Shown piece after piece: positions 37,419 through 64,000 of a stretch of DNA of 64,000 nt (positions within the stretch are counted from its first letter, which is position 1; every line of letters begins with the position of its first letter). Under the pieces are notes generated by a model that was not told the origin of the DNA, did not search any database, and was given only the letters and a program-made list of their open reading frames with translations. The stretch covers positions 2,294,001 through 2,358,000 of the forward strand of contig CP137324.1 of assembly GCA_033182465.1 (NCBI GenBank), written 5' to 3'. Both the position numbers and the translations under genes were made by a program. Source of the stretch: Sanghuangporus weigelae. Its lineage: Eukaryota; Basidiomycota; Agaricomycetes; Hymenochaetales; Hymenochaetaceae.

Positions 37419-38898
37419 TCAAGGATGGCTTTGTTCTGGCCTATAGCCATCGAATACCTTGCTACTGCCTCTTTTCTTCGGGTCCCAGTGCATCTGTACT
37501 GCGGCCAAGTAGCAGGAGCTGCCAGGCTTCCGCTCCTTGAGATGCCTGACCAGCAGGTCTCTGCGTGTATACCCAAGTTCTGGGCACGTACACGATTCGG
37601 CCTCTGTGGCACAAGGATTTTCCAGACCCGGACAAAACCATCCATCCCTCTCTGTCCTTGTATGCCGCGACTCATGCCGCTTATGGTCCTTCAGGAGCTT
37701 TGAGGGGTGACCGCAGAAGCGGCATCGATAACTTGACTCTGAAGATATCGGTTTTACTTTAAATGGCCTGTCGCGGATCTCCGGTCCGGCACGTCTCCTT
37801 TTGCCTGAGATCATCGGCTTTCCATTTCCTCGTATGTTTGCAGGTGCGGAACCTGAAGGAGCCGTACTTACAGCCGTGGACGTATGTACGGCGCCAGCGT
37901 TAGATTCAGCGAGAACCGCGTCCTTACGGACATTGGGATAGACAGCACCGGCCGGTCTTTCCACGTTCATTGTCTCTTGAGTTGTGTTCGGATTTACAAT
38001 CATGTGTAAATCTCGACATGAGTCAGGACTCATGTCTTGTGGGGAGTTGTTCTTGCTTGCGCCTGACGAGGGTAGGGTAGCCAAAGAATGAGCCGGCGCA
38101 TTGAAGAAGTAGATATCTAAGGGTATCGAGTTGCCAGAATGTGCGTCCACATACGCAGCGTCAGTCGATACCTGCGACATTTCTAATGCAGGGGCCAAAT
38201 AACGCATCATAGAAGCGGAGGCAGGTTGATGTTGTAAGCCTGCCGTGAAGTATGAGCTGGCAGTAGATGATGCCAAGGAATCGAACCTACGTCGTTGAGC
38301 GTGTAGGTTCGACCTGAAAAGAGGTGGGAAAGACTGTTCCGTGCCGAAGGCGGGTCCCTGGGCCTCCGGAGATGATCCAAATTGTTCGACCATATCATCA
38401 GTTGGCCAGTTAGCAACCGACGATTCGCCAGACGTTGAAGTTGTGGAAGAACCCTCGGGTGAGTTGGCGTGTTGTAACGGGTTGAAACTTGGATCGGTCA
38501 GTCCGTAGTCAAGTCTGTCGTTTTGGAACGCAGGCACCCCTGCTCCATATGAGGGTGGATGAAGTAAAGGTGCTCCCGTGAATGCCGGGACTCCTGTGCT
38601 TGCTTTGTCGACCATACCGTTGGCCAAGCCACCGGCTGTACTTGGTCCAGCACTCTTTGAAGTCGGTCAGAACTTTTTGTTTGGAGGAGGGGAGAAGTGT
38701 GCTCACTGAGACGTCATAATTATAAGAGTCTTCAGCGGTGCAGCCGCAAGCACCAGTGTACTCGCCTAGAGACACTCTACTTGTGGAGTAGTCGAAGTTG
38801 GGTGCGTCGGTCGTCGGGTACTCGCCTTCAAAGATCCCGTATGCGTGCGAGTTGTCGAAGACAGACGTGTAATGGCTTAAGTCGTAGTCGTATGGCAT
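37419..38898 (-). CDS. Zinc-finger protein, putative transcription factor (paralogue 2)
   Basis: Two exons. The first, MPYDYDLSHYTSVFDNSHAY through SYNYDVS, joins phase 0 through a GT..AG intron of about 50 bases to SAGPSTAGGLANGMVDKAST. The protein is about 450 residues, disordered and Ser/Pro-rich, with an RRRAGPEIRDRPFKVKP motif that matches MKRAGPAIRNRPFNNN in paralogue 1. The Cys/His region reads YRCRFCGHPSKLLKDHKRHE, SRHTRTERDGWFCPG, CTCPELGYTRRDLLVRHLKE and KPGSSCYLAA, and it ends GYRPEQSHP. The two proteins share the finger region and the RAGPxIRxRPF linker but little else. The first finger has the C2H2 form (C-x2-C ... H-x4-H). Likely nuclear. Intact. Confidence 0.76.
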
Positions 38899-45449: not shown

Positions 45450-47862
45450 GCTGGACTCTGAAGGTCGACTCGATGGGCACTGGCCTCTTCATGTGTCTGC
45501 TGTGCTCAACTTATACTGCTGTGCGGCGACAAATACGACGACCGCTCGGAGTTCTCTCGGTAACAACATTCATTCACTTCGCAAAATCCAGACTCAGAAC
45601 TTGGTTGCCTGAAAGACTTATTGCAAGACGTGTTGGTAGCGGACCGCTAGTACCGTCGACTCTAGGCATGCAATCGTCTAAAGTAAGGCGCTAGAAGCCG
45701 CTGAACAGGAGAAACGAACTGTGGCGCTTGGTCAGGCCCCGTTCCGTGTGCTCCAAATTGCACATGCTAGTGGGACGAACGTCTAGCAGCACTGTCTATG
45801 TGACCCGGAGAATCGAGAAATTTAGTCACTTCTTAGGAGCAGCGATCATCTGTAGACACGCATATTGGACGGTCCGTCCGAAATCGCGAAATTTACGCGC
45901 TATCCGTTTTCCAGTACGTTTGGTTATGCTTTGAGTTTACAGGTGTTCAATTGCATCGACGAGCTGGATACCCCTGACATATAGAATCTAGGCATCCCGA
46001 ATAGTCGAAAGAAGTATTGTTTCCCCGAAAGCCAGATCGCAGGAACGTCCGTGACTCGCCTTACCCATTCACGTATAACCTTAGCCGGATTCCGAAAGAA
46101 ATCAACTTTAAAGAAGGCTATAATTGTCGCCATCGGAAATTTGAGAAGCATCTGAAAACGAGAGAAACGAATAAAACAGGCCGCGAAGATCATGAAAGAT
46201 GTATGAACCAGTATCATCGTACCTTCTCTTGAAAAGCTCCCCCAGTTCGTGAGGAAAGTACCCGAGAGTCTTTATACAGTCACCATGTGATCCGGATGTA
46301 TCGAGATGAGTTCTGTATGAGAACGCAGATATGCAGGGAGAAGATCCGCGACCCAAAGTCGATGTCAAGGCAGATATTCCAAGTGAGAATGATATTGACA
46401 TGGACAAATGTCCAAAGCTGCTTACGCCACGGCATTAGTCGTATGGATGCCAAGAATAACGCATTTCACAGCACTCAGCACTACATCGCGTTCGCAGTAG
46501 CAAAATCTGGACGTGAGAGACGTGACCACGGCCCGCTGTGGAACATCAGAAGCCGAGATCATCGTAGGTTGTGAAGAGTGCGTCCTCTCCGAGGTGCTGT
46601 TATAAGATGTAGTGCATCTCTTATGCCTGAGCATGAGAAATAGGTCAAACTTGAAGACTTACGTAGGCTTATTGTGGCTCGCTTCAAGTAGGATCGAGAG
46701 CCTCGCACGTCGATATCCCACCGGACGCACGAATGATAAGCGACGGCACACTGGAATACCATTTGATCCACTGAAGACTCGATCTAAAGGACATTTTCAT
46801 TTCCCAGAGGTGAAAAGTGTTGAGAAGGTGGACGAACACGTTCAAGATTCAATAAAACAAGAAATTATGAACCAAGCTTGATCGTGGGAGAATATCACGT
46901 AAAAATAAGCGAAACCCGTTTATTCGTTTGTTTGCTCTTCAATGCTAGATAGAAATGCGACTTCTCTTCTGTAACGAATACGCTCTCTTTACCAATAAGA
47001 AAAGGTGTGAAGTTTTTATCGGTTACAGCAGATCGCTCCTGCTGAAGTTTTTCCGCGCAGCCCAAAGTTTTACAAATCTCAGTAGACGAATCTCAGTAGA
47101 CGACTCTTGTATTCACCTTTTACAAATCTACATGAACAATATAGTAAATCTTATGGAGATATAGAAAAGAGAGAAAGTGTACTCACCTCAGTCGTAGTAG
47201 TAGTAGACGACTGAGGTGAGTGGCGCACACTTTGATATAGGCTGTGTCAGCCATGCGTGACATAATAATAGGTGAAAAGAAAAAGAAATAGAAACGAGTC
47301 TGCATGTGATCGATAAAAATCCATATTAGTTGAAAGAATAAAGAATTGGAAACAACAGAAACAAAAGGTCGAGTCACACATATCTTCAACACAAAGTGGT
47401 AAAAAAAGGTGCTCAAATGCACATCCAAGACTGCCAGGTGTCTGCGAGAAGAACTGCATATTGGTCATTCTCTGGTGATAATCTGCTGCTTCAGTCCTAC
47501 TGTAAATCACATTCAAAGATTCCAGACACTTTTATTGATCTCGCCTGTCCTTCTTCAGGCTGACTGTGCGTTCAAAGTGTTCGGCACTTTGTAAGGGACA
47601 AGGTCTTTATTAGGCAAAAAAGTGGTTCAAAGGACTAACTCCATATATTTGGTCCTCAGTAGACTTGCAAATCTTGTGAAATCAGCGGAGTCTCTATTTC
47701 TTGCGCTTCCGTAAGCTTTGCACCTAGATCTGGCTTGGATTCTTGCAACTTTCTTGGGACCTTCATTGGGCGATAACTGTAGATTTTCTGCATCTTACTC
47801 TTAATCAAGTCTGAGCAAAGCTAGGGGTGAGTATTATGTATTTCTCTTTCTCTATCCATCAC
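45450..47862. other. Intergenic stretch of about 2.4 kb
   Basis: No supported gene. Notable content: a perfect 15-bp hairpin at 47181-47221 (listed separately). The stretch ends where the duplicated zinc-finger unit begins. Short frames near 46100-46900 show no domain or exon chain. Confidence 0.5.
47181..47221. repeat. Perfect inverted repeat (hairpin)
   Basis: Arms ACTCACCTCAGTCGT (47181-47195) and its exact complement ACGACTGAGGTGAGT (47207-47221) flank an 11-base AGT-repeat loop. The inner CACCTCAGTC/GACTGAGGTG pair is the same as in the hairpin inside the copia LTRs at 54281-54317. Confidence 0.85.
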
Positions 47863-48575
47863 AGAATAGTTTATGATTTTCATTTGATTGCGCTCGTAGA
47901 AATCTCTATCAAGTAAGTGTTAATTAAGACAGTCAAACGTGATAAGCAGCCATTCAATAGTGCAGCGATATTACGATGACCGCGTGCATTGCAGATATTT
48001 CATCCGTTCAGAAAAGGTAAGAGCCTGTGCAATCTTGTTCTACATGAGCTATCGGGTATTGATGCCAATGCAATAGAAATGGGTGAGGCGCGTCAAGGAC
48101 TCAAGGTTCATTCGGGCCGTAGAGAGGCGTGCGTCACGACTACTTGAAGCCTTTTTACATGTCTACCAGTTCTTCGCGTCTTTCTTACCAACTACAACCC
48201 ACCTGTCTATGAAAACGACCTTCATCTTTATCAATCCGAAATGGAGAGTTATTTCTTCCTCCTCTCTCGAATTCGCCTCTCTTTTTGATATGCAGCTCTG
48301 AAGTTTCTTATTTTTATCCACCTTGTTGCTACCTTTGTAATTCCTGCTTAACCGATAGTGTTTGCGGATAATCACGAAAGAAACAAGATCAAGCTCAAGA
48401 AAGTGCTTGCGCAGAACAGCCAAGTGTAACAAGTACCTTTCTATAGACGCAATGGTAATATGAAAGTTGTCATGCAATCACAAAGAGATTCGTATTCATG
48501 AAATAGAACTTGAGAGCTCGTCTTATTCTGCTCTACACGACCTGTTGGATCTTGAGGTTCGTTCGAGCCACAGAG

Positions 48576-48641
48576 ACGCGTGTGTCACATGGCACGCGTA
48601 ACACACTATTTAAGATCCTTTTCGCTTGACCTTTGACGCGT
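48576..48641 (+). promoter_or_regulatory. Cluster of three ACGCGT boxes, copy A
   Basis: ACGCGT occurs at 48576-48581, 48594-48599 and 48636-48641, the last 61 bases before the ATG, with a TATTTAAG stretch between. ACGCGT is the MluI cell-cycle box bound by MBF-type factors in ascomycete yeasts. All three boxes are kept in copy B. Confidence 0.5.
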
Positions 48642-48701
48642 CGATTCTCTTTACCAACTGTAATCCATCTGTGTGTGAAAGCGACAATCAGCTCGTCTAC
48701 G

Positions 48702-50252
48702 ATGCTACTCCATTACCAACCTGACATAGAGAACGTCGACGTCGACGAAGCAATAAAAGTCGTGAATGATATTCTGGACCGCATAGCCGCAAACCCAGCG
48801 CTGGAGTTCGGGCTAGAGGGGATGCCTGAAGACATTCGGACACTGCTGATGACGGTGAGCGGACTCCTCTCGCTGAAGGGAAAGCACTAAAGCAAAGTCT
48901 AGCTCGAAGAACTCCCCACTCCACCGATGGGAAATCCACTCAACCGAACAGCCAATTATCCTCTATCAAAACAGGAGGTCCCTTCAGGCCAAACGCTTGT
49001 CCACGAGCCACAAGCAGTCGACCCATCTGTGAGCCAGAGTTCTACGGGACATTGCTGTGATGGGGCGTCAAAGCACATCCATTTCGAAAGGACAGATGGT
49101 AAGTATGGCATCCTCTATAGGCTAACGCATTTCGAACTCATGAGACGTACCAGAACTTGCACCGTCAGGATCGAAGGAGCCAAAACAAGGCTATGGTGCT
49201 TTTGCCCCGATGAAATCGTCTTTACACGATGTAGCCGCCGATGAAAATAGCCATGTGGCTTGGACTGGACATCCATCTCTCGTATGGTCTAAGTTTCATG
49301 ACAACGGATACTTCATACGAAATGATATGAATCTGGTCTCTTTGCCATCACATGGCGAGAGCCACCTTCCCGATTTCTGCTCCGCAGCTCCAGACTCCAC
49401 ATTGTCTATAACTCCGTACCAGACAGCGTTACAACAACCTACCTCTCAAAGCTTACCGGACATCGCACTCATGGAATCTGACCCTACGCAGGTGAGAGAA
49501 AGGAGGAACACGCTTGGATGCACAGGCCTACCATTCAGCCCATCTTTGAATGCCAGCGGCAACAAAGCCACCGAAATTTCGAGCTCCAGTTTGCTCGATT
49601 CTTCAAGCTCGGTATCTTCTCAGCCAAACCTAGCGATGCCTTTGTCCGGGGATTCCTGGCGTGATGGGGCATACAATAATACTGCCTGGAATAACAAGGC
49701 CCGAGCGCGAACAATCAGTACGTTCCGCGGCTTTCTCTTTGCCTCGTTTCCCAGTAGCTCATTGCTCGTTTAAAAGGCCCTTCAGTAAACATACGCAACA
49801 GGACTTTCTTTGCTCTTCCTGATGATGACGATCCGTCGCGCGTGTCATTGTCTCCACGGTTTGGATACCGTCCATCTCCTTCGTCATCCGCCGACATATC
49901 ACCTATGCGTGAACCTTTCCGAACTGCTCGGCATGTGATCGTTAAACATGCGCACGACGTCCAAGGTAGCTTGGTAGGGCCGGAGAGAAGGAACAGGAAG
50001 GAACGGAAAACCAAGGTGGGGAATGCCTTTGGCTCGGGCACCGGCATTCGATGCAGGCTCCCTAGTTGCAATGTTCCGGATTATGAGTTCGCTTCGAGAA
50101 AGGAACTGGAGAGGCACCAGGATTCCGCTGCCGTGCACTGTGGTTCCAGAGCACGGTGCCCGAAATGCGAGAAGGAATACAGCCGCGACGATGCTGTACT
50201 GAGGCACATGAAGAGGGCCCACCAATCTATCGCTATCGATGTTGAAGCGTGA
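48702..50252 (+). CDS. C2H2 zinc-finger protein of unrecognised family, copy A
   Basis: Four exons: 48702-48854, 48903-49098, 49154-49717 and 49786-50252, phases fitting, giving about 459 residues. Exon 1 (MLLHYQPDIENVDVDEAIKV through MPEDIRTLLMT) is an acidic, likely helical module. Then LEELPTPPMGNP and a long disordered middle rich in Ser, Pro and His, with a small conserved island NSHVAWTG. The last exon ends in two Cys/His fingers, CRLPSCNVPDYEFASRKELE with RHQDSAAVH, then CPKCEKEYSRDDAVLRHMKR AH (C-x2-C-x12-H-x4-H). Preceding these is a basic block (ERRNRKERKTKVGN). Probably nuclear and DNA-binding. Its partner copy is at 61.4-63.0 kb. Confidence 0.75.
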
Positions 50253-51104
50253 TGATTATTCACCGTGCCCATGCATTGTTGTGGTGTACTGTTCAATTAT
50301 AATTATTCAGCGACATCATATAGTTTCAATACCTCTATCTTTTCCTTTTTTCGATCGCTCTGGAGTTGTCCTCTGAGATGAACAATAGTGCCGAATGCAT
50401 CCTCGTATGTACCTAGTCTTTACGGCTTTTACCTGCAATATATGTATCCATATAGTTAGCAACACATTATCATTTAAACAGGAACAGAATTACGAGAAGC
50501 GCGTGCCCATCGTCGACTCGAAAGACGATCCTCGGTTAGAAACGACGTCTGAAAGGGCATTTTCAACTGTTTTTCTGCAGATGGACAGAGAATAACGACC
50601 TTGTCCAAACAGCCTGTCGATATAAGTAGGCGCAAGCGGGATTACTACTTACTCGAGGCGAGGACACATGATTTTTGCGACGAATCGCACCGTGGAATAA
50701 AATTATATAATCGTAAGACAGAAATGGTATATGATTCTCACATTTCCGCTCTCAAACTTCAAAGTACCTCAGTCAAGCCAGACTTTTCTCTTTTTCCAAC
50801 TTGAAGCTGCGCAAAGCACCCAAGATAGCCAAGCAGAGATAAGTGAAACAAACGGAAAGGAGTTCAAAGAGCGGCGAGGAATATAGTTGCGAAAGGCTGG
50901 ACAAAAGCCAGGTTGTATTCCGGAGCCGGAGAAAGACGGACGCTGGTGATGACGGTGAGTGGTTTCTATCGGTATATGAATCAAGCCAAGTCATAACTTA
51001 CCGTCCTGTCAACGAACCGTACGATAAATCGCTCACTAGTCGAGTCGGTCAATGAGCCCGTTTCTGTTCCGTAATATTTTACAAGCTACTCTCCATGAGG
51101 ACGC
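50253..51104. other. Downstream part of duplicated unit, with fossil exon end
   Basis: Matches the stretch from about 63024 to the right edge. At 50935-50957 the word CGGACGCTGGTGATGACG followed by GTGAGT resembles the exon-1 end of the zinc-finger genes (CGGACACTGCTGATGACG then GTGAGC), suggesting a further old duplicate of that exon. No intact gene seen. Confidence 0.5.
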
Positions 51105-51914
51105 TTGATAGCCATAAGGCTTGACCAGGACCTATTTCCACTAATATGGCCCTCCGCGTCAACTGTAACTTATCAATGCATGGCTATGAGTTCCGCTATA
51201 TCGACTGCACTGCATTCCAGTCTCGTGACGTGCAAAAGAAGGAAGCCAAAATCGACAGACGGGATCGAGGAATCTATCCTAGATTGGATCAAGTGGCAAA
51301 TATGTCGATCACGCACCGGAAGGATGCAAAAGGATGTAGAAGACAAAATATCTGAACAAAGGCCTCCAGCCAAGCACACGCTGGTTGATCTCATCCGTGA
51401 GTACAGGGACGTTGATCCTGTAGGAGTATAGATGATGCTCAAGGTACGGGCCTATGACACATTCTGCTTGGAGGCCATGGAACATATCAATGCCTACGTT
51501 GAAAGGGCGAGATGGAGCTTGAAACAGGGAAGGCTGATCCAGGTCCGGCGAACTCGTCTCTTAAATACATCGAAGACCAGAGCCACCGTGTCTAGTGGTG
51601 CATACAGCCACGTGGCTTGGACAGGGACAAAGACCGATGGTCCTGATAACAGGTCGAGGAGGCAAACGGATATGGATTGTTTTGGCATACAATCCTGGCA
51701 CTCTCAAGGGAGTTGGGACATCCAAGTACTGATTGAGGAAAGCCAGGAACCGATTTGCACCAAAGAAGCTCATACGGTCCAGGTACTGGTTTCCAGGACC
51801 AGTTATAATTCTGCCAGATCAGAATGCGTTTCCTTTTGCATACTCCATTCTACAGAAGATTCTGTGACATCTTTGCTGCAGCGTTATCCTTCCCATATAT
51901 TTCTGTCTCGCTGA
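51105..51914 (+). pseudogene. Degenerate third relative of the zinc-finger family
   Basis: A frame beginning near 51105 encodes IEESILDWIKWQICRSRT and ends after KHTLVDLIREYRDVDPVGV, resembling in style the N-terminal helical module. A second frame, 51432-51914, contains GAYSHVAWTGTKTDG, the same conserved island as in the two full genes. No zinc-finger end follows; the tyrosine-recombinase element begins soon after. I could not join the pieces with good splice sites. Either a truncated duplicate or a gene whose 3' end was displaced by the insertion. Confidence 0.5.
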
Positions 51915-52346
51915 TCAGTTTTTTGCCTTAGTATGTATACATGTGTTTTACCTCCTGTCTGCGTCCTTCATTCCGTACTTGCTGTGTAAGAAAACACATT
52001 TTGTATGTTTCGCAGTTTGTTATTATAATGTACATTTTATTTTGAGAGAAAGAAAGAGGAGAACATGAGAGACGAGAAGAGAAGAGGAGATGGGTGCCAG
52101 CCGCTGAAAGCGGCTCCGGCTCCCATCGTCATGCCCGAACCTACAAGTGGCAGAAGTCAGCTACGGCTCAACACCTATAATGTAGGAGCCCGTGACGCGT
52201 CGAGGCGTAGCGAGAACCCACATGAGTAGGAGGCGGGTGAAAATACTTACGGTTTGAGAAATAAAGGGGGGGGGGGGGGCGATAATGCACCGAGCCGCGG
52301 AAGTGCAAGATCAGGTCGCATATATAAGAGACTCAGACACATCTGA
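51915..52346. other. Left flank of recombinase element, low-complexity
   Basis: Contains an AG-rich run near 52045-52090, a GC-rich imperfect hairpin near 52090-52128, a GACGCGTCG word near 52195 and a run of 14 G at 52266-52279. It probably includes one end of the recombinase element, but no terminal repeat is clear. Confidence 0.45.
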
Positions 52347-53543
52347 TTATCTCGGAGGGGGCATGGTCAATTGAACGAACTGATCATGCACTTCGGGGGT
52401 GGCCTGAAGGTAAGGGGCCAGGATTTGGGCGTGTTTGCGAAGGTAGAGGGTGAAGGCATCAGATGCCCAACGCCTGATTGCCTTGACCACATCGAAGGGA
52501 ACTCCACGAAGCAGATATTCAAGTGTAGACCCGATACGAATGCTATGGCCATGTAAATGCTCAAGGCCGGCTTGCTTGGCAGCTTGCTCCAGGCGTTTGA
52601 GAAAAACAGTCTTGGTAAGGGCCTGGTGAGTATTCTCAGAGCGGTATGCAAATAGAGGCCCATTCAAGGGAGGACAATTAACAGCAAGATGATTTTGAAA
52701 GGCAGAGAAAGGGTCAGTCGGCCCTTCTTGAGCAGCCCAGAAGACCTCTTCGCCGTTGGGTGCCGTTTTGGATGTAGGCAGAGAGAAGACACGAACTTGA
52801 TGGCCCTGGCGATCCGTTTGCTCAGAGACATCAGATGGTTTGATATGGACATGGGGGAGGAATGCTGCTCGATTCGGAACAGTGAACTCTCCAAGTCAAG
52901 CACAAGCATAAAATGATGTAGTCAAGCAGGCAAAGACAGTGGCATCCAGAGGTTCGGAGAGAGAGCCTGCACCATGAAGGAGGGATTTGAGTTCGGTTTC
53001 GTTGATACTCCATGGAACGCGATGCAGGACATGCCAGGCTCGAATGCCAAAGACATAATTTGCAATTAATGACGAAGAGTAAGAACCAGCCAATGAAGCA
53101 ATGAAACCAGCTAACAGATCAGAGGAACAAGGAGCTCGAAGCTCTTCAGAGATATGTAGATTATCACAGAAACGATGAAATTGCGCAAGTCCAGATCCAT
53201 AAGTCTGTGGAGTGGATTCTTTGAGCGAAGACGCGAGTGCATCAACCACACGGTTTTGTAAACTGAGGGGAATCACTGAGAGAGAGACTGAAGTAGAGAC
53301 TGGTTTCCACAGCTTTAACCTTGATTTTGCTGGAATGTCGGGACGTAGAGGAGACGAGTTATGAGCGCCAGAACTGTTCAAAGTCTCGGAGCGATCGATC
53401 CCCAAGATTGAAGAGTTCATCCAGGGAGTCCGGACTGGGAGTTGTCTTCGTTTTGGGGCAGGCATTAGGGGCCGTCTGGCTGGAGATCTCGCCATATGGG
53501 ACTGGCTCGAGGAAGGGAGAGAGCTCCGGCGGGAGAGAGACAT
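52347..53543 (-). pseudogene. Tyrosine recombinase (DNA breaking-rejoining enzyme) remnant
   Basis: The N-terminal core-binding part is recognised by TPQTYGSGLAQFHRFCDNLH, IASLAGSYSSSLIANYVFGI and RAWHVLHRVPW. The catalytic part carries HLHGHSIRIGSTLEYLLRG (the H-x-x-R pair) followed by AIRRWASDAFTLYLRKHAQI, which includes the likely nucleophile Tyr. This layout matches recombinases that cut and rejoin DNA through a phosphotyrosine link. The region is not open end to end, so it is treated as a fossil. Confidence 0.65.
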
Positions 53544-53607
53544 TCAGCTCCAAAACAGCGTTTTCGTGCTCCAGACACCTGAGAGAATGAGGATGGAGTC
53601 GAGGCCT

Positions 53608-53611
<4 letters not shown>

Positions 53612-53640
<29 letters not shown>
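53612..53640. repeat. (GACA)n microsatellite
   Basis: About seven units of AGAC/GACA in a row, lying just upstream (minus-strand sense) of the recombinase region. Confidence 0.9.
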
Positions 53641-53641
<1 letters not shown>

Positions 53642-53699
53642 TATAAAAAGGGAGTGGTTAGAGACAATGACATTGTAACGGATATGTTACAGAACATAA

Positions 53700-53935
53700 G
53701 GAGAGAGGTCATCACAGAGATGTGTCATCGCAACCAGACATGGTTGTGGAACAGAGAGAGAGATCATCGCAGAGATGCAGCATCACAACCCGATATGGTT
53801 GTGGAACAGAGAGAGATCATCGCAGAGGTGCGGCATCACAACCCGACATGGTTGTGGAATATAGAGAGATCATTGCAGAAATGCGGCATCGCAACCTGAC
53901 ATGGTTGCGGAAAAGAGAGAGAGAGAGAGAGAGGA
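53700..53935. repeat. Minisatellite of about 53-bp units
   Basis: About four imperfect copies of a unit containing GACATGGTTGTGGAACAGAG and ATCATCGCAGAGATG, ending in a (GA)n run at about 53913-53930. It lies between the two coding regions of the recombinase element and may be an intron or spacer of it. Confidence 0.8.
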
Positions 53936-54179
53936 GTGCTCACGGTGGAGGATGCCATAAGCTGATGGATTTCGTTAACTTGCTTTTGGTGTTGTGCCGC
54001 CTGCAGTTCCTGCAGGACTTGATTGAACATAGCCTCGTCTACACAGTTAATGTAAGGGTGGGAGTTGGTCTTCTCGAAGTCGTTATGCCACATGGTGCGG
54101 ATTCGAGCAAGATAGACCATGAGAGGGTGCTGGCCGTTAATCGTTGTGTTGAGGTTGGACGGATGAGAAAGAACATTAT

Positions 54180-54436
54180 TGTTAAGAATATATCATCGTT
54201 ATCGTTGTGATCGTCAGATTTGAGTTCGGACTGTTTTTCCTTTTCTATTTTCTTTATAAACGACCAGCCGCTTGTTATAACACCTCAGTCTTCTACTATA
54301 TTCATCAGACTGAGGTGAGGCGTCTTTTACCATTCCGGACAGTATTATATCCTTACATTCGTTTGTAGCACATTCTCAATAGGTATACGAATATGAGTCT
54401 TCTACTATATTCATCAGACTGAGCACATTCTCAATA
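54180..54436 (+). repeat. 5' long terminal repeat
   Basis: Starts TGTTAAGAATATATCATC and ends GCACATTCTCAATA. It contains TTTATAAA, a likely TATA element, and the hairpin CACCTCAGTC/GACTGAGGTG. Its right part repeats a segment of itself (TCTTCTACTATATTCATCAG occurs twice and CACATTCTCAATA twice). Confidence 0.92.
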
Positions 54437-54450
54437 GGTTATGAGCCTTG
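54437..54450 (+). promoter_or_regulatory. Primer binding site of the copia element
   Basis: GGTTATGAGCC directly after the LTR is complementary to the anticodon region of initiator tRNA-Met, the half-tRNA priming used by Drosophila copia and its kin. Confidence 0.65.
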
Positions 54451-54489
54451 GGCCGGCCGCTGAACGAACGCCATAGATAGAACACGTTT

Positions 54490-57400
54490 ATGCCCGTATA
54501 CACTAGACATCAGAGGGAATCAAATAACGACCCACTCCCCGCTTTAGACCTAGACCCGTGGTTATCCAATACAGATCGATTCCAACCTAGAGCATCGTAC
54601 TCGGTAGGATCTTCGGTGGCACAGACTCCATCTTCTCTCAGCTCTCTTACAACACTTCCAAGCAACATGTCAGCCCGTCAATCCAGAACCCACTCTGCGT
54701 CTCCCCCCCCAGATACCAATCCAGAACAAGCACATATATCGCCGGTTCCTAGCCGTGAGTCTCTTGAGGATCTTGCTAGTCAGCCCATTCCCCAACCATC
54801 ACAATCGCAAAACCGGCCCAACTCTGCCCGGTCTCCCGAACTTGACACGGAGACCCTCTTCCAAAGGTTTAATCAAGAATTCTCTCTAGTTCCCGTGGCT
54901 AAGACTCCTACCGTCGAGACTAAGATCAAGCAACCTTGGGAATACCATGTCAAGGAGTTCTCCGATTCCAACCACCTGAAACCAGACGGCTCAAACTTCA
55001 TCTCTTGGAAGAAAGTGCAACTAGTGATTCTCAGAACTCACAAGTGGATTTCTCATGCCGAAGGCTCGTCTATCCCTCCCTCTGATGTCACCAGTAAAGC
55101 ATATGATGTCTGGCAAACTGTGGACAACTTGACGACTTCTCAGATTGCGATGAACATGGACTTCGATCTCTACGGCGAGCTTGGTGATGAATTGGACTCT
55201 GCTGCCGAACTCTGGAGAGCGATCAATTCCCGATTTTCAAAGAAGACCTCTGCTGCGCGTTCTACTTCAAAGCTGAATCTGGATAGTAAAAGGATTCAGC
55301 CAGGTGAGAAGATGAAGGACCATATAAAGACACTTCGAAATCTGAAAGCTCAGTACATCAACTGCGGTGGCAAGATGGACAATGACGATTGGCATACCAC
55401 TATCATTAATTCGCTATCAGACCATGAACAGTGGAAATCCTTGGCTGTCTTCGGGCACTCTCTACCCCTCCCAGACCAGATGATCGCATTCCTTGAAGAC
55501 CAGGATGCACACGGTTATGCAAAACCGTCTAAATCTGAGGCTGCTCTTCAAACGAGACCCCAACCTCGTCCTCGCTTCCGTATCCGATGCCCTAATTGTA
55601 ACCGTACCGGTCACTCTCTACAAGACTGCTGGGCTCCAGGGGGGGGTGCAACTAGTAGGCGCCCGCAGAACTATCGGATGCCGCCTGACTTTGCTCAGCG
55701 AGAACATGCCAACATTAGCGCTCAAATAGCTGCTTTAGAAAGACAAAGGGCTAACCTTTACGTCCCGGCATCTCCTCGAGGTGACGACTTCGAAACAGCA
55801 AGAGTGACAATTCAACACCGCATAGGTGACGCTGCCATGATAGCCAACAACGTTGGTCTATCGCGCGAATCCTGGGTGTTCGACTCTGGAGCAACGTCGC
55901 ACATGACGAACGATAGAAGCAATTTCACATCCTATGAAGAGATTCAGCCAATACCAATCTCTACAGCCCATGACCGTGTGCAGCTCCTGTGGGGAGTTGG
56001 AAGAGGAACGGTATTGGGATCATTCAAGTACAATGGAGAAATTACTGTCATACCTGTAAAGGACGTCTTGTACGTCCCAAATGTCTCCATCAACCTTCTG
56101 TCACTTCTTCAATTGCACCGGAAAGGAATTCGCATCTTCTCAGATGACGAGCACATCCACTTCATGGTCAGAGGAACACCCTACGCAAGGGCCTCTGTGG
56201 TAATGAATCAGTGGATTATGGACATGTCTGTTTCTCATGAACGTGCGCACCTCGTCACTGAGAAGAATAATGTCAAACAACCTCTCCACGTCTGGCACGA
56301 GCGACTTGCACACATTGATGCAAGACGTGTTGAAGAGATAGCTCGTGACAATCTGGCAGAAGGAATCCAATTAGCTGAGTCGGAATCCAATAATTCCTGC
56401 GAAGCATGTGTGCTGTCGAAAATGCCAGCGTTGCGAGCCGACTCGAAGGAACTTCGTGCGGTCAAACCAGGGGACATTGTCCACTCTGATCTCGAGTTCA
56501 TGGGTCACAAGTCTTTCTCTGGCGCCACCATTAGCCTAAAATTCGTTGATGAGTATTCCAATTACGTCTGGTGTCATTCTATTCAAGATAAAAGTGCACA
56601 TACCATCCTATCATTCTGGAAAGCGCTATGTAATTCCCTTAAAACCCAATATTCCGTCACTGTCAAAGCTCTTCACTCGGACAATGGAGCTGAATTCGTC
56701 AACCATGCTATGGATGAGTTCAATCAACAACACGGAATTACCCACCATCTTACCGTACCATTTCGACACGAGATGAATGGCAGAGCGGAACGAATGAACA
56801 GAACAGGATCAAATGCAGTACGAGCCATGCTCCAATTTGCAGATCTTCCACCGATTTATTGGGCCGAAGCATACGACACCTTCATTTACATCCATAACCG
56901 ATGTGGCAGATCACACCGAGGGAACGCCACCCCATACGAAGTCCTACATGGAACTAAACCCACCATTGATCACATCAGAACCTTCGGATCTCCGGGTTAT
57001 GTCCATGTTGTACCTGAAAAGCGGAGGAAGCTCGACGCAAAGGCGACAAAGTTAATATTGGTGGGGTACCGAGACAATGCGGCTTACAGAATGATCGACC
57101 CCAACACGAAGAAAATTTCTTACTCTCGTGATGTCATTTTTGATGAATTCCGTTCTTTTCGAGTAAATGATCTTCAAGTCAATTCAAACTTAGCTACTTC
57201 GTCGATCTCTTCTGCCACTCCTCCTTTACCTCTTCGCTCCTCTTCTCGAGTCCCAAAAATGACTGGCAAAGCCATAGCGAGTGCAGAACAGCACAAGTCC
57301 TTGTCATTCCTTGATAGAGCTCCCCAAAAGGACGAATGCTTATATTCCACTACATCACTCGGAAACATCTCCATCCCCAGGTCTGCTCATGAAGCTCTCG

Positions 57401-58947
57401 TCTCTGATCAGTCCAATGAGTGGCATGCGGCCATGTTGTACGAAATCGCAAAGCTTGATCAGATGGACGTGTGGGATGTTGTCGAGAAGCCAGATGATTT
57501 ACATGTAATCAAAGGCATGTGGGTGTTCTCTCTCAAAGAACAAGCTGATGGGACTCTTGAGTTTCAAGCGCGTTGGGTTGCTCGTGGTGATTCACAAGTT
57601 CCTGGACTTGAGTTTGGCGAAACTTTTGCTGCCTCTGGGGACTTCATCTCAGCTCGGTTCGTGTGTGCCCTAAGCTGCCAAGAACACACTCAGCTTGTTA
57701 CTTTGGACATAAGCTCCGCTTACCTTCACAGTCCTTTGATCGAATCTGATCTCATTGTCGAATACCCGACCGGCTTCTCTGTCCCCAACCTGATCCACCC
57801 TTGTTGCCACCTGAAGAAAGCTCTGTATGGTCTCAGGCAAGGCGCTAGGGCCTGGGCTGATCACTTCACTGCCAAATTAAGTGACATTGGATTCGAAAGA
57901 TGCATTTCCGCACCGACCGTTTACATTCGTTCAGACAGCGAGGGGGGCAGGACAATTATGTCCACTCATGTCGATGACTGTACAGCTGCACCGATGTCTT
58001 TGACACTGTCTGGACCGAACTCTGCTGACTGTCTGAGAACCGACATCAGGAAACACTTCGACTTCAAAGAGAAGGACCCAAGAGCCGGTGCAAACACACT
58101 AGGACTCACACTCAAGTACGACGAAATCAATGGGGCAGTAAAGCTGACATTAGCACAGAAGATAGAACGAGCGGTGGAAAGATATGGAATGAAGAATGCG
58201 CATACGGCACGTACACCGATGGCTCAAGATGCGCTGAACACATTCGCCACTGATGATCTGCCTGCCGAAGCCAATCCCCCATGGCCATATGCACAACTTG
58301 TTGGAGAACTACTTTGGTTCGCGACGGTCTTGCGCGTGGACATCTGTTTCTCGGTCAACATGCTAGCTAGGTACCTTCAAAAACCGACTAGAACTCACTG
58401 GGAAGCGGCGCTACGTGTACTGAGATATCTGAAGGGAACGAAAGACTTGGGGATTGTGTACGAAAGAAAGAAAGACAGGGAGCTACTGGCGTTTTCTGAC
58501 TCTGACTGGGCTGGAGATGCCACTGATAGAAAATCGATCAGTGGGTACGTCTTCATGTATGCTGGGGGTCCTATTGCTTGGAAATCGCGCAAACAAACTG
58601 TTGTCGCCAAGTCTACGGCTGAAGCAGAGTACATATCGGTGTCCGCTTGCGCGCAAGAAGCCATCTGGTTCCGCCATCTTATGAAAGAACTCGGAATGGA
58701 TCTGACTGAAAGTCCGCTAGACATTCATGTCGATAATCAAGCAGCAATCCTTATGACCAAGAATCCTGTTTACCTGTCTAAGACGAAACATATAGACATC
58801 CCCGCACACCACATTCGAGACGAAGTTCACAAAAGGCGCATTCGTTTGGTACATGTCAACAGAAACGAAAACCCCGCCGATATCCTCACTAAACCTCTTG
58901 GTGCCACTCTACATGAACGGTGTCTGGCTTTACTTGGAATGAAATGA
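54490..58947 (+). CDS. Copia Gag-Pol polyprotein
   Basis: A single frame of 1485 residues. Order: Gag (about 150-350), zinc knuckle CPNCNRTGHSLQDC (near 365), protease with DSGATSH (near 465), integrase with HERLAHIDARRVEE zinc-binding start and the DDE-type core HSDNGAEF, then reverse transcriptase with the STHVDDCTAA active-site block, and RNase H with ADILTKPLG near the end. Protease-integrase-RT-RNase H order defines the copia superfamily. The element looks whole. It is flanked by identical LTRs, so it is young. Confidence 0.93.
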   Translation: MPVYTRHQRESNNDPLPALDLDPWLSNTDRFQPRASYSVGSSVAQTPSSLSSLTTLPSNMSARQSRTHSASPPPDTNPEQAHISPVPSRESLEDLASQPIPQPSQSQNRPNSARSPELDTETLFQRFNQEFSLVPVAKTPTVETKIKQPWEYHVKEFSDSNHLKPDGSNFISWKKVQLVILRTHKWISHAEGSSIPPSDVTSKAYDVWQTVDNLTTSQIAMNMDFDLYGELGDELDSAAELWRAINSRFSKKTSAARSTSKLNLDSKRIQPGEKMKDHIKTLRNLKAQYINCGGKMDNDDWHTTIINSLSDHEQWKSLAVFGHSLPLPDQMIAFLEDQDAHGYAKPSKSEAALQTRPQPRPRFRIRCPNCNRTGHSLQDCWAPGGGATSRRPQNYRMPPDFAQREHANISAQIAALERQRANLYVPASPRGDDFETARVTIQHRIGDAAMIANNVGLSRESWVFDSGATSHMTNDRSNFTSYEEIQPIPISTAHDRVQLLWGVGRGTVLGSFKYNGEITVIPVKDVLYVPNVSINLLSLLQLHRKGIRIFSDDEHIHFMVRGTPYARASVVMNQWIMDMSVSHERAHLVTEKNNVKQPLHVWHERLAHIDARRVEEIARDNLAEGIQLAESESNNSCEACVLSKMPALRADSKELRAVKPGDIVHSDLEFMGHKSFSGATISLKFVDEYSNYVWCHSIQDKSAHTILSFWKALCNSLKTQYSVTVKALHSDNGAEFVNHAMDEFNQQHGITHHLTVPFRHEMNGRAERMNRTGSNAVRAMLQFADLPPIYWAEAYDTFIYIHNRCGRSHRGNATPYEVLHGTKPTIDHIRTFGSPGYVHVVPEKRRKLDAKATKLILVGYRDNAAYRMIDPNTKKISYSRDVIFDEFRSFRVNDLQVNSNLATSSISSATPPLPLRSSSRVPKMTGKAIASAEQHKSLSFLDRAPQKDECLYSTTSLGNISIPRSAHEALVSDQSNEWHAAMLYEIAKLDQMDVWDVVEKPDDLHVIKGMWVFSLKEQADGTLEFQARWVARGDSQVPGLEFGETFAASGDFISARFVCALSCQEHTQLVTLDISSAYLHSPLIESDLIVEYPTGFSVPNLIHPCCHLKKALYGLRQGARAWADHFTAKLSDIGFERCISAPTVYIRSDSEGGRTIMSTHVDDCTAAPMSLTLSGPNSADCLRTDIRKHFDFKEKDPRAGANTLGLTLKYDEINGAVKLTLAQKIERAVERYGMKNAHTARTPMAQDALNTFATDDLPAEANPPWPYAQLVGELLWFATVLRVDICFSVNMLARYLQKPTRTHWEAALRVLRYLKGTKDLGIVYERKKDRELLAFSDSDWAGDATDRKSISGYVFMYAGGPIAWKSRKQTVVAKSTAEAEYISVSACAQEAIWFRHLMKELGMDLTESPLDIHVDNQAAILMTKNPVYLSKTKHIDIPAHHIRDEVHKRRIRLVHVNRNENPADILTKPLGATLHERCLALLGMK

Positions 58948-58965
58948 GTCCTACCAACGACACAA

Positions 58966-58975
58966 CGAGGGGGGG
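58966..58975 (+). promoter_or_regulatory. Polypurine tract of the copia element
   Basis: CGAGGGGGGG-like purine run directly before the 3' LTR, at the place where plus-strand DNA synthesis is primed in LTR elements. Confidence 0.6.
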
Positions 58976-59232
58976 TGTTAAGAATATATCATCGTTATCG
59001 TTGTGATCGTCAGATTTGAGTTCGGACTGTTTTTCCTTTTCTATTTTCTTTATAAACGACCAGCCGCTTGTTATAACACCTCAGTCTTCTACTATATTCA
59101 TCAGACTGAGGTGAGGCGTCTTTTACCATTCCGGACAGTATTATATCCTTACATTCGTTTGTAGCACATTCTCAATAGGTATACGAATATGAGTCTTCTA
59201 CTATATTCATCAGACTGAGCACATTCTCAATA
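58976..59232 (+). repeat. 3' long terminal repeat
   Basis: Same length and, base by base, the same sequence as the 5' LTR. Followed by the target duplication ATTAT. Confidence 0.92.
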
Positions 59233-59237
59233 ATTAT

Positions 59238-60201
59238 GAAAAAGGTCGTCCCACATGTCGACGACTTCAGGAGGCCATTGTGCATTGCAAATGGCTTCGA
59301 GAAAATTCAGGTGGGCTTCTCGGAACTGATGTAAGTCAAGTAGATCATCGGAAGGCACCTTCTTAGACAGAAAGGCTGAGGTAGCAGGAACGAGGGCGGA
59401 TGCTCCATTGACGACTTCAAAACAATAGGAATTGTCGGAAATGGTCTGCTGATGGGATTCAAGTTGGCTCTTGAGACCACGAGTCGTCAAGTGGAACAGA
59501 GGGACGTGCTGCAGCTTCTGAAGCCGACTCTCGATGGAAGCATGGAGGACGTGAGTGGACCGGCGGTCTTGAAGGAGGTCAGGGCCAAACTGGAACGGGT
59601 TTCGGTCTGGGCTAGCGCGGGCGGCAGTAGCAGCAGCAGCAGCAGCAGCAAGAACGGGTACAGCAGGTGCAGGAGCAACAACGGGAGCCGGAATATGGAG
59701 AATGGGAGGAACGGCATCCGCAGGAGCAGCAGGAGCAACAGCAACAGATAGTGCAGGAGGTAGGATCTGAATGACCGGGGTTGGAGACGGGGGTCGCGAG
59801 GCGTTAGGCGACGGAGCCAACGGAGCCAGGGAACTGCCACTGCTCGCTTGTGCCTGATTTGCAGCCGTTCCGTGATCGACGGCGGAGGAAGGACCAGCGA
59901 CAGGAGCCGAGGCGGGGTCGACGGAGGCGGAGTGGGGTACGGGGATAGAGTGCGACGAACTTGCCTGGTTTGAACTGTATGTGTTCCACCATATTTTCGC
60001 CTGAGCCGTCCAAATCTGCCAAGTCTGTTCCATAAACCACTTGATTTCGTTGTCATCCAGATTGCTAAGCCGTCGTTTGTATTCACGTCGAGCGTCGTCA
60101 TAAGCAGCTGAAGAGAAATCCGGCATTTGAAGAAGGTCGGGATCACACGGTACACGGTCGGGTTGCGGTGGCACAGCATTACGACGTGTGTTGATGGCCA
60201 T
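59238..60201 (-). pseudogene. Upstream protein region of the recombinase element
   Basis: A frame starting MAINTRRNAVPPQPDRVPCD and containing WFMEQTWQIWTAQAKIWW, then a long Pro/Ala/Ser-rich segment, then FREAHLNFLEAICNAQWPPE and VDMWDDLF next to the copia insertion. No known domain. The copia element splits it, with further minus-strand coding sequence of the same kind on the far side (about 54170-53930). Treated as a fossil. Confidence 0.6.
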
Positions 60202-60324
60202 ACTGATATAGTTTGAAGAAGCAAACTAAACGAATGTATAGAAAGGAGATACAGAACACGAGCAAAGAGGGTTTCGGTATTTGAAATGAAATTTGCAACA
60301 ACGTTCCTTCACGACGAGAACGAC

Positions 60325-60383
60325 GCGTCGGAGGTGATGGTAGGAACGAAAGAAGCCTCGGCTTCTTCCGTCACCTCCGACGC
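60325..60383. repeat. Nested hairpin
   Basis: Outer arms GCGTCGGAGGTGA (60325-60337) and TCACCTCCGACGC (60371-60383); inner arms GAAGCC and GGCTTC around 2 bases. It lies upstream of the recombinase element's first frame and may mark its end or belong to its promoter. Confidence 0.75.
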
Positions 60384-60790
60384 AGACCTAAATCTTCAGT
60401 CTGGCTCGCCACACCGAAGATTGTCACATACTTCATTCTCCAGTCCAAAGCGTTGATCTCGTATTACCCTTCATCTTTCATACTTTTTCGCGTTGTCACA
60501 TCTCCGCATTTGGTATTTCATGTGCATTCTTGTTTGTAACTCACAGTCTTCAACCTGTAGCCAAGAAGGGAATATAAGCGAGATGTGCCCGATTCCTCTT
60601 AACGTTGCATTCCAGTTCGAGTCCACGCAGGTTTGCAATGTAATCCTCTGTAAAGATACCTACCTACCGCTATCGCCGTCGCATTTATCGTCGTGGTGTC
60701 ATAAGACCGAAAGCTTGCAAAGTACAGGATTTTTGGACCACAAAGCCGCAAACGAATCGTGATCGTGTCGTGCAGTTTTAAGCGGCGCAT
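60384..60790. other. Spacer between recombinase element and duplicated unit B
   Basis: About 400 bases without a supported gene. It does not align with the sequence just left of copy A, so the tandem junction lies in or before it. Confidence 0.45.
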
Positions 60791-61313
60791 AGAACACTTT
60801 ATGACTTTCATTTGATTGCGCTCGTAGAAATCTCTATCAAGTAAGTGTTAATCTAGAGAGGCGTGCGTCACGACTACTTGAAGCTTATTTTACATGGCCA
60901 CCAGCTCCTCGCGTCTTCTTACCAACTACATTCCATCTGTCTGTGAAAACGACCTTCATCATTGTCAATCTGAAATGGAGAGCTATTTTTGTTCTCTCTC
61001 ACATTTGCCCCTCTTTTTGATATGCAACTATGACGTTTCTTATTTTTATCCTCTTGTTGCTACCTTTTTTCCTTTGCGATTTTTGCTTAACCGGTAGTCT
61101 TTGCGGATAATCATACATGAGACAAAATCATGCGCAAGAAAGCGCTTGCGCAGAACAGCCAAGTGTAACCAGTATCTTTCTATAGACGCAATGGTGATAT
61201 AAAAGTTGCCATACAATTACAAGAGATTCCTATCTATGAAATAGAACTTGAGAGCTCGTCTTATTCTGCTCTACACAACCTGTTGGATCTTGAGGTTCGT
61301 TCGAGCCACAGAG

Positions 61314-61379
61314 ACGCGTGTGTCACATGGCACGCGTAACACACTATTTAAGATCCTTTTCGCTTGGCCTTTGACGCGT
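61314..61379 (+). promoter_or_regulatory. Cluster of three ACGCGT boxes, copy B
   Basis: ACGCGT at 61314-61319, 61332-61337 and 61374-61379, at almost the same spacing as in copy A. Confidence 0.5.
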
Positions 61380-61439
61380 CGATTCTCTTTACCAACTATA
61401 ATCCATCCGTGCGTGAAAGCGACAATCAGCTCGTCTACG

Positions 61440-63023
61440 ATGCTACTCCATTACCAACCTGACATGGAGAACGTCGACGTCGACGAAGCAATAAAAGTCG
61501 TGAATGATATTCTGGACCGTATAGCCGCAAGCCCAACGCTGGAGTTCGGGCCAGAGGGGATGCCTGAAGACATTCGGACACTGCTGATGACGGTGAGCGG
61601 ACTCCTCTCGCTGAAGGGAAAGCACTAAAGCAAAGTCTAGCTCGAAGAACTCCCCACTCCACCGATGGGAAATCCGATCAACCCAACAGCCAATATTCCT
61701 GCATCGACACAGGATACCCCTTCAATTGTCTCGAACCATGCGCCTGAGCAGGGCCATAAACCCAGCACATCCATCGATTCACCTTCAGAAACCTGGAATG
61801 AGCCACAAGCAGAAGAAGATGATGTGAGCCAGCACCCAATGGACCACTATCGTGACGAGACATCAATGCACACAGGCAATGAAAGGACTAGTGGTAAGTA
61901 AAATGCATGCCTGCAGTCTAATGGATCTCGAGCTGATCAGCCGTATCAATCCAGGCAACAAAGAACAAAGAACAGACCAGTCTCTTTTATACCACGGACC
62001 CACCGGTACTGGCTATGTGGCTTGGACCGGTCAAAGACAAGCCACCTTGTCTAATTCCTACCAAGACTCCCCGTACGAAGGTACCAATGAATCTATCACG
62101 AGTGACGGAAAATATATGAAAGACATGACCTATTTGTCATCGCACGGCGGCGGAGACCTCCATCCACGCTTCTATCCCATAACTCCTGACCGCGCGTTGC
62201 CTGCAGCTCCAGACCTGATGCTGATGCAGCAGCCTGTTCGTGAACGCCCGCAGGATATTCCAATCGCGGTATCTAATCGCATGCGTGTAGGGAAAAGTAA
62301 GGACGTGATTGGAGGCTCAGGCCACCCATACCGCTCATCATTAAATTCCGGCGATGACAAAGACAGCAACCCTGGTTTGCTTGTGCCTTCAAGCTCGGCG
62401 CCTCCATGGCCGAATGCAGCGATATCAGTATCCGGAGGCCTTCAGCACGATGGGAGGGACAATAATACTGCCTGGGATAACAGGGCCGAGGTGCGAACAA
62501 TCAGTATGTCCTCTGGCTCCTTGTTGTCTCGTTTTCCAATAAGCTCATCGCTCGCTCGGAAGGTTTCTCAGCAAGCATACGCGATACGGCTTTCCTCACT
62601 CCTGGGGATTCGTCGCTCGTCTCATTGTCGCCACCGACTTATCACCCTCCATCTTCTCTGTCATCCGTTCACATGTCGCCCACGCGCGTACCCTTCGGAA
62701 CTGCTCGCCATGTCAATGTTCAACTTGCACATGGGCCTCAAGAGAGCCAGATAGGACCGAAGAGGAGGTGCAAGAAGGAACGGAAAACCAAGGCGGGAAA
62801 TGCCTTTGGCTCGGGCACCGGCATTCGATGCAGGCTCCCTAATTGCAATGTTCCGGACTACGAGTTCGCGTCGAGAAAGGAACTAGAGAGGCACCAGGAT
62901 TCCGCTGCCGTGCACTGCGGTTCCAGAGCACGATGCCCGAAATGCGAGAAGGAATACAGCCGCGACGATGCTGTACTGAGGCACATGAAGAGGGCCCACC
63001 AATCCATCGATGTTGAAGCGTGA
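61440..63023 (+). CDS. C2H2 zinc-finger protein of unrecognised family, copy B
   Basis: Four exons: 61440-61592, 61641-61893, 61955-62503 and 62572-63023, about 468 residues. Exon 1 differs from copy A at only 4 of 51 residues, and intron 1 (48 bases) is identical. The middle (from about residue 65 to about 370) is strongly diverged in sequence and in exon 2 length, keeping only islands such as GYVAWTG, NNTAW and RTI before the last intron. The final exon returns to near identity through the fingers (CRLPNCNVPDYEFASRKELE, then CPKCEKEYSRDDAVLRHMKR AH). It ends SIDVEA, two residues shorter than copy A's SIAIDVEA. Fully open, so both copies may be in use. Probably nuclear; function unknown. Confidence 0.76.
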
Positions 63024-64000
63024 TGATTATTCACCGTGACGACGCATTGCTGTGGTATCCGGACTGTCAAATTGTTCAGCGTCATCGTATAGTTTCAATA
63101 TCTCCTCGTACTATCCTGTATATACCTGGTCTTTACGGCTTATACCTGCAGTATCTGTATCCCTTATAGTATCCATATTAGTCAGTAACTCGTTTTATCA
63201 TTAAAGAGGAGCGGAATTACGAGACGCGCATGCCAATCGTCGACCTCTATTGACTCGAAAGATGATCCCCGATTAGAAACGACGTCTAAAAGGGCATTTA
63301 TTTGTGTAACGGTCGAACTGATGCAGGTGGGCAGAGAAGAGCAACCTTGTCCAATCAGTCTGTCGACATAAGTAGGCGCAAGCGGGATCATTACTCGTAG
63401 GCGAGAAAACACGCACATGAATTTTTTGGAACGAGGGACGAATAGCACCGTGGACATAACTGTGCACCAGAAGTGGCATATAATTCTCACGAAGGAGACT
63501 TCATTCTCAAATTCAAAGTACCTCAGCTAAGCCAGGACTTTTCTCTTTTTCCAACTTGAAGCTGCGCAAAGCACCCAAGATAGCCAAGCAGGGTCAAATG
63601 AAGCGAAAGGAAAGGAGTTCAAAGAGTATAGTTGCGAAAGGCTGGACAAAAGGACGGACGCTGGTGATGATGGTGAGTGGACTCTTTCGGTATACAAGCT
63701 AAATTATAACTTACCGTCCGGTCAGCGCACCGTACGATAAACCTCTCACTAGTCGAGTCGGTCAATGAGCTCGTTTCTGTTCCGTAATATTTTACAAATT
63801 ACTTACCATGAGGACGGCATGGGGCTCGACCAGGACCTATTTCCGCTAGTATGGCTCAACTGAAACTCACTAATGCATGGCTATGAGTTCCTCTGAGGTA
63901 TAATACGACTGCATTGCATTCCAGTCTCGTGACGCCATAAAGGCAAAAGAAGGAAGCGAAAATCGACGGACGGGATCGAGGAATCTGCTCCAGATTGAAT
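63024..64000. other. Downstream part of copy B, with possible small exon
   Basis: Matches 50253-51289. Near 63596-63672 a frame MKRKERSSKSIVAKGWTK followed by GRTLVMM ends at a GTGAGT donor, echoing the exon-1 end (RTLLMT) of the zinc-finger genes. It could be the first exon of a further family member that continues past the window. Confidence 0.35.

Follow-up and report, generated by a model that had tools for sequence, protein, structure and literature searches.

In Caenorhabditis, interlocus gene conversion has been reported over 7,829 duplicate pairs, with tracts ranging from 12 to 2,958 bp (PMC3966223). Narrow peaks of old divergence are reported for the heterokaryon-incompatibility genes of Aspergillus fumigatus (PMC11138114) and also for the mating genes of Trichaptum, with a median synonymous divergence (dS) >1.71 and nonsynonymous divergence (dN) >0.22 (PMC8970355). 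In Basidiomycota, a survey of genes encoding C2H2 finger proteins gives Ka/Ks <1 in all clusters, and neither its abstract nor its section 3.7 describes a pair with conserved ends and a divergent middle (PMC12295980). Such a pair of basidiomycete C2H2 finger genes, referred to here as A and B and also including a narrow peak of old divergence, is found in Sanghuangporus weigelae, within a 64,000-base window of contig CP137324.1 (C7:2294001-2358000); positions without a contig name are those of this window. The analysis is based on one genome (33.87 Mb, 13 contigs). Among the literature matches listed, judged by title and the start of the abstract, none describes a pair of the A/B type or such a fungal zinc-finger pair. 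The combination of near-identical ends and a divergent middle, first pointed out in an earlier note on this sequence, is real and, with corrections, confirmed by change-point analysis and counts. The pattern is statistically strong and is best explained by an ordinary, known process: A and B are probably old tandem paralogues that gene conversion has homogenised time and again, leaving a weakly constrained linker unconverted.

A mosaic of divergence between two tandem genes

Gene A (48702-50252, + strand; exons 48702-48854, 48903-49098, 49154-49717 and 49777-50252) and gene B (61440-63023, + strand; exons 61440-61592, 61641-61893, 61955-62503 and 62563-63023) are both intact, display four exons with intron phases alike and stand inside one tandem duplication. 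As the earlier note had stated, both are open, with spliced frames of 462 and 471 residues respectively, that of A ending in a C-terminal zinc-finger pair. The A/B alignment was submitted to a change-point analysis blind to annotation, with a threshold of 8 on the log-likelihood gain; in 100 shuffled alignments, the best single split gained at most 6.91. The fraction of differing positions is 0.123 in segment 47860-48497, falls to 0.023 (10/440) in 48498-48937, rises to 0.365 (368/1007 columns) in 48938-49996, falls again to 0.038 (10/265) in 49997-50267 and then stands at 0.248 in 50268-50749 and 0.098 in 50750-51965, so the flanks of the two genes differ by 10-25%.

The first low-divergence tract (48498-48937 in copy A, + strand, 2.3% from B) runs from the promoter through exon 1 and intron 1 into exon 2, of which it takes in the first 35 bases. 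The earlier note's counts hold here: exon 1 differs at 4 of 51 residues (5/153 nucleotides) and the 48-base intron 1 is identical (0/48). The first 35 bases of exon 2 are likewise unchanged, and the promoter (48498-48701), which had been described as shared, carries 5 changes in 204 positions. Promoter and intron 1 taken together (7/255) are significantly less diverged than the flanks (p=2.6e-6). This 5' tract is young, probably the product of a recent conversion or exchange bordered at 48498 and 48937.

The divergent middle (48938-49996 in gene A; 61676-62773 in gene B by the same change-point analysis; both + strand) runs, in A, from within exon 2 through intron 2, exon 3 and intron 3 into the start of exon 4. 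Exons 2-3 had been said scarcely to align, but the middle does align: beyond codon 64, the local score of these exons is 259 against a shuffle maximum of 63 (n=300), and exon 3 is alignable from VAWTG onward with 34-39% protein identity. Introns track their neighbourhood. Thus, intron 2 differs at 19 of 55 positions and intron 3 at 23 of 59, corresponding to Jukes-Cantor distances of 0.46 and 0.55 versus 0.09-0.27 for the flanks. Introns 2 and 3 together (42/114) clearly exceed five flank pieces (208/1837; Fisher's test, p=1e-11), and still do so when the most divergent 3' piece is included among the flanks (313/2297, p=1.6e-9). Repeat-induced C-to-T mutation is not favoured, as these introns are rich in transversions (16, against 26 transitions).

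Codon-level tests of the middle and of the ends

Over the whole middle (codons 65-379 of A, 296 aligned), dS is 0.77 (0.58-1.00) and dN 0.48. The resulting dN/dS of 0.63 (95% bootstrap interval 0.47-0.84) is not the value above 1 looked for in the variable part of a recognition gene. The point estimates of its sub-parts range from 0.56 to 0.69, all below 1, with upper bounds of 0.96-1.16. At the finger end (81 codons), dS is 0.16, dN 0.011 and dN/dS 0.07, and in exon 1 dS is only 0.03; the dN/dS of 1.21 computed for exon 1 is unusable, as it involves one synonymous change and the printed interval misses the estimate. The remainder outside the low-divergence tracts is thus of a higher synonymous age than either end. 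The finger exon, previously described as shared, is so for its C-terminal ~83 codons, which are near-identical, whereas the part preceding them (72 aligned codons, dS 0.61) belongs to the divergent middle. The finger-end protein is kept by purifying selection, and its near-identity needs no conversion because its dS is at the level of the flanks and selection acts on the protein. The suggestion of conversion at the ends therefore stands for the 5' end but is not needed at the finger end.

If the duplication were recent and strong positive selection had then acted on the middle, this would fit the observation that the proteins differ most in that part, and the earlier note had proposed a strong diversification as in arms-race genes. 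However, synonymous sites and introns 2 and 3 are old too, and even the upper bound of dN/dS remains below 1. As dS and introns 2 and 3 are raised alongside dN, the main cause must lie elsewhere than in recent positive selection; this history, rejected on account of the intronic and synonymous excess, is scarcely credible. The middle looks old at silent, intronic and replacement sites alike rather than fast-selected.

Hardly more tenable is a scenario in which a useless linker has drifted neutrally, under relaxed constraint, ever since a single duplication. The linker is indeed weakly constrained and of low model confidence, but the noncoding flanks of the same unit are far less diverged than the middle with its introns, so a single age misfits. 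Relaxed drift at one age is rejected on this comparison, and drift since the separation of the flanks is not the principal cause. Moreover, exon gaps keep the frame: 10 of the 11 are multiples of three (4/4 in exons 2 and 4, 6/7 in exon 3), the exception being a 10-base gap in an uncertainly aligned stretch close to the exon 3 start. Flank gaps, by contrast, have lengths of many kinds. The absence of a replacement excess in the middle, by which the earlier note would have seen its idea fail, is thus observed on average, yet the divergence exceeds what neutral change would have produced since the separation of the flanks.

A similar mosaic in a neighbouring array

A three-copy tandem array is located ~100 kb downstream, outside the window (C7:2455871-2468734). 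Its protein has a weak zf-Di19 match (E 0.037, below the cut-off) and no significant similarity to A or B (best E 0.43). Pairs of array copies include tracts with 0/479 and 2/311 changes, and coding stretches with a dS of 0.88 and 1.43 at dN/dS of 0.09 and 0.06, respectively; the array's own linker-like stretches reach a dN/dS of 0.8-1.3. Copy 3 is a patchwork of the other two: its informative sites, 142 in agreement with copy 1 and 86 in agreement with copy 2, fall into 39 runs versus at least 84 in 2000 shuffles, the longest runs counting 47. Copy 1 carries an early stop in its frame.

Old stretches beside freshly homogenised tracts thus arise here under strong constraint and without an arms race. 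Since this array, which seems unrelated, carries a like mosaic, the pattern is nothing peculiar to the A/B family, and it most likely reflects an ordinary process, not an arms race. More generally, a protein-level comparison of neighbouring genes can mimic an arms race when their parts differ in age. The deciding check is the comparison of introns, synonymous sites and noncoding flanks of one duplication, together with a nearby tandem array, and it is both cheap and general.

We infer, from the significantly low-divergence tracts of the tandem copies and the higher age of the remainder, that conversion made the A/B mosaic. The age of the paralogues would be best read from the middle (dS about 0.8), and interlocus gene conversion, or unequal exchange, would have overwritten most of the unit at differing times, the latest overwrite affecting promoter, exon 1 and intron 1, and earlier ones the outer flanks with the dead relative they include. 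The Ser/Pro/Gly/Asn-rich linker, under weak constraint, may never have been overwritten and so would retain the old divergence that gives it a hypervariable look, while the finger end would have stayed near-identical via purifying selection against protein changes.

The duplication unit, its decayed relative and its insertion

By self-BLAST and alignment, the duplication unit measures about 4.3-4.5 kb and extends beyond the genes. Copy A (47860-51958, + strand) matches 60788-64677, so copy B (60788-64000 in the window, + strand) runs on to 64677 beyond the window end; stretch 47926-48119 of copy A is without counterpart in copy B. The piece directly 3' of the gene A stop (50268-50749) is 24.8% from B, above the outer flanks. 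A displaced end piece of unit A (60428-60786, + strand), to the left of B, matches 64678-65043, situated after copy B, with 50 of 359 positions differing. As this piece to the left of B matches the right side of B's unit, unit A was split by an insertion; most likely, the ancestral unit consisted of the gene, a decayed relative and the end piece, and that of A was later split by insertion 51959-60427.

The third, decayed relative mentioned in the earlier note is supported by two collinear matches and stop-filled frames. It is placed at 50930-51625 in copy A (+ strand), where the end of exon 1 and the VAWTG segment are recognisable and frames are broken, and at 63655-64000 in copy B (+ strand), with its VAWTG segment at 64319-64347, beyond the window; being inside the duplicated unit, it is present twice. 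The match to the end of exon 1 scores 105-110 versus a maximum of 85-95 in 200 shuffles, and that to the VAWTG segment 75-85, which alone is merely at the upper end of shuffles. Frames are crowded with stops. A looser DNA alignment of the relative barely stands apart from shuffles (1171 vs 1115 and 1083 vs 1097), and the stricter alignment was used.

The 8.5-kb mobile insertion (51959-60427, delimited by self-BLAST) includes two open reading frames (ORFs), a tyrosine-recombinase-like one at 52347-52895 (-), whose Pfam Phage_integrase score of 25.9 bits is slightly below the cut-off of 27.1, and a second at 59227-60225 (-). Nested in it is a long terminal repeat (LTR) retrotransposon (54181-59232, + strand), assigned by eye to the copia type from its ORF. 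This recently inserted element has LTRs identical over 256/256 bases and is flanked by a 5-base target duplication, ATTAT.

The unit, a clean direct repeat with about 9-15% divergence over most flanks, might also result from an assembly artefact in which two dikaryon haplotypes were joined in tandem. This is very unlikely. Indeed, with the units ordered [gene+X][gene+X] and only one of them carrying the 8.5-kb insertion, the join would have to fall exactly at the unit border, the nearby three-copy array is not obtainable from two haplotypes alone, and 13 contigs for 33.9 Mb suggest a good assembly.

Family members, mating-type genes and the ancient-allele alternative

A genome search with the finger end of B gives eight matches, four strong and four weak (E 0.002 to 0.9). 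The strong ones are all on C7 within about 105 kb and correspond to A, B, D (C7:2390386-2388882, -) and C (C7:2446899-2447972, +); with a longer stretch of A as query, six matches are obtained, headed by these four. Exon 1 of A matches A and B only in the genome. The short exon 1 of C and that of D are alike, as 0/500 shuffles reach their score, but neither resembles exon 1 of A above chance (157 and 169 of 500 shuffles), so across the family only the position and rough length of exon 1 are shared. Exon 3 of B likewise finds only B and A; no other genomic source of the middle was found with this query. Mating-type matches, namely four Homeobox_KN on contigs C1 and C9 and 14 STE3 on C10 and at C7:564-565 kb, show no linkage to the locus, the nearest STE3 matches being about 1.8 Mb away.

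These searches bear on an unlikely alternative, the tandem capture of ancient alleles. Balanced divergent alleles at one locus, as at mating-type or heterokaryon-incompatibility loci, would have been tandemised by unequal crossing over, or one copy would have taken its middle from a divergent allele, and the allelic diversity would serve a recognition or regulatory polymorphism. Middle and introns several-fold older than the flanks suit this scenario, as does exon 3 of B, for which no donor remains; the old divergence is ~1 kb wide, comparable to the few-hundred-base diversity reported for heterokaryon-incompatibility genes of Aspergillus fumigatus (PMC11138114). Nevertheless, dN/dS is below 1, a similar mosaic exists in an apparently unrelated and strongly constrained array, and the 25% 3' flank piece and the low finger divergence demand extra events. 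The Homeobox_KN and STE3 matches are, moreover, unlinked, and a component of the mating-type locus was rejected as linkage to homeodomain (HD) or STE3 genes was not found.

A bolder form of this alternative is highly improbable. In it, A and B would represent two ancient specificities of a nuclear regulator, tandem-captured from a balanced polymorphism; selection would keep the island apart, the linker would be the recognition or partner-choice part, and exon 1 and the fingers would be common machinery. If true, this would make the locus a basidiomycete candidate for somatic incompatibility or another form of allele recognition. No recognition gene is known to have been cloned so far in this group. 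Other middles among A or B alleles in other strains would make the locus a candidate recognition gene. A 2021 paper calls the mechanisms of basidiomycete somatic incompatibility completely unknown (PMC8229728). A recognition or balanced-allele role is required by nothing here and is a low-probability alternative.

Further genes were noted in the neighbourhood. Region C7:2472548-2482253, outside the window and near the zinc-finger genes, holds repeated WD40-like ORFs, of which the one scanned has a PF00400 match, and, judged by eye, a kinase-like ORF. In the window, two genes at 32277-33829 and 37419-38666 (-) have Cys/His-rich C-termini that appear by eye alike and unlike the A/B family; ORFs 32277-33107 and 37419-38666 have no Pfam match at E 0.1.

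Gene models and protein features

A simple exon finder, given the start region and stop as sole input, ranks the same models of A and B at the top, intron 3 alone being shifted by 9 bases, and the intron 3 acceptor of gene A is uncertain by these 9 bases. The zinc-finger end of gene A (49997-50252, + strand) encodes C-x4-C-x15-H-x6-H followed by a classic C-x2-C-x12-H-x4-H. The spacing of the first finger is not classic, and the PF00096 (C2H2) match is limited to the second, with 26.3 bits versus a cut-off of 25.2. Between A and B, the second finger is identical and the first differs by one residue. No Pfam match was found at E 1 for exons 1-2 of A or exon 3 of B, nor at E 0.1 for exon 1.

Ser, Pro, Gly and Asn abound in the linker formed by the middle, where S, P, G, N, T, D and Q together make up 51-55% of residues. 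AlphaFold, run on two-sequence alignments, gives a mean predicted local distance difference test (pLDDT) of 40 for exon 3 and of 49 for the finger exon, in which two finger-like units appear with low-to-medium confidence. The low confidence of the linker fits disorder but, with two-sequence alignments, is no proof of it. The charge-hydropathy rule is borderline, as it scores the B middle as disordered, the A middle as just folded and the finger part also as disordered. We infer that the A and B proteins are putative nuclear DNA-binding regulators, which would recognise an identical or closely similar target site and differ in their linker.

Comparison with known systems

Several points weigh against repeated conversion around an unconverted linker. 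With two copies, neither the direction nor the number of A/B conversions can be revealed. The island nearly matches in extent the protein region under weak constraint, and its border falls just short of the fingers, a fit not necessarily expected by chance. It is also suggestive that homogenisation reached the noncoding flanks, equally free to diverge, but spared the middle. Such an island could arise if selection acted against conversion of the linker, or if old alleles had been captured in tandem. The control is a single array, whose raw divergence maximum over 300-column windows is 0.19-0.23 versus 0.44 for A/B, although its oldest stretches have a dS as high as or above that of the A/B middle despite this lower raw divergence. 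Finally, islands of divergence in GOT1 of Tigriopus are reported to be able to mark regions selected for new functions (PMC3728101). That case, GOT1p1/GOT1p2 of Tigriopus californicus, concerns a copepod enzyme gene with population data, whereas A and B are a fungal zinc-finger pair in one genome.

Old tandem paralogues homogenised by conversion are nonetheless retained as the probable explanation. The Aspergillus fumigatus and Trichaptum cases (PMC11138114, PMC8970355) are alleles found in many strains, whereas A and B are two paralogues in one genome. In Caenorhabditis, surviving tracts tend to 50-200 bp, and longer ones may result from several events, but the patchy tracts of its paralogues are like those of A and B, and the 440-bp tract shared by the two genes is within the range reported there (PMC3966223).

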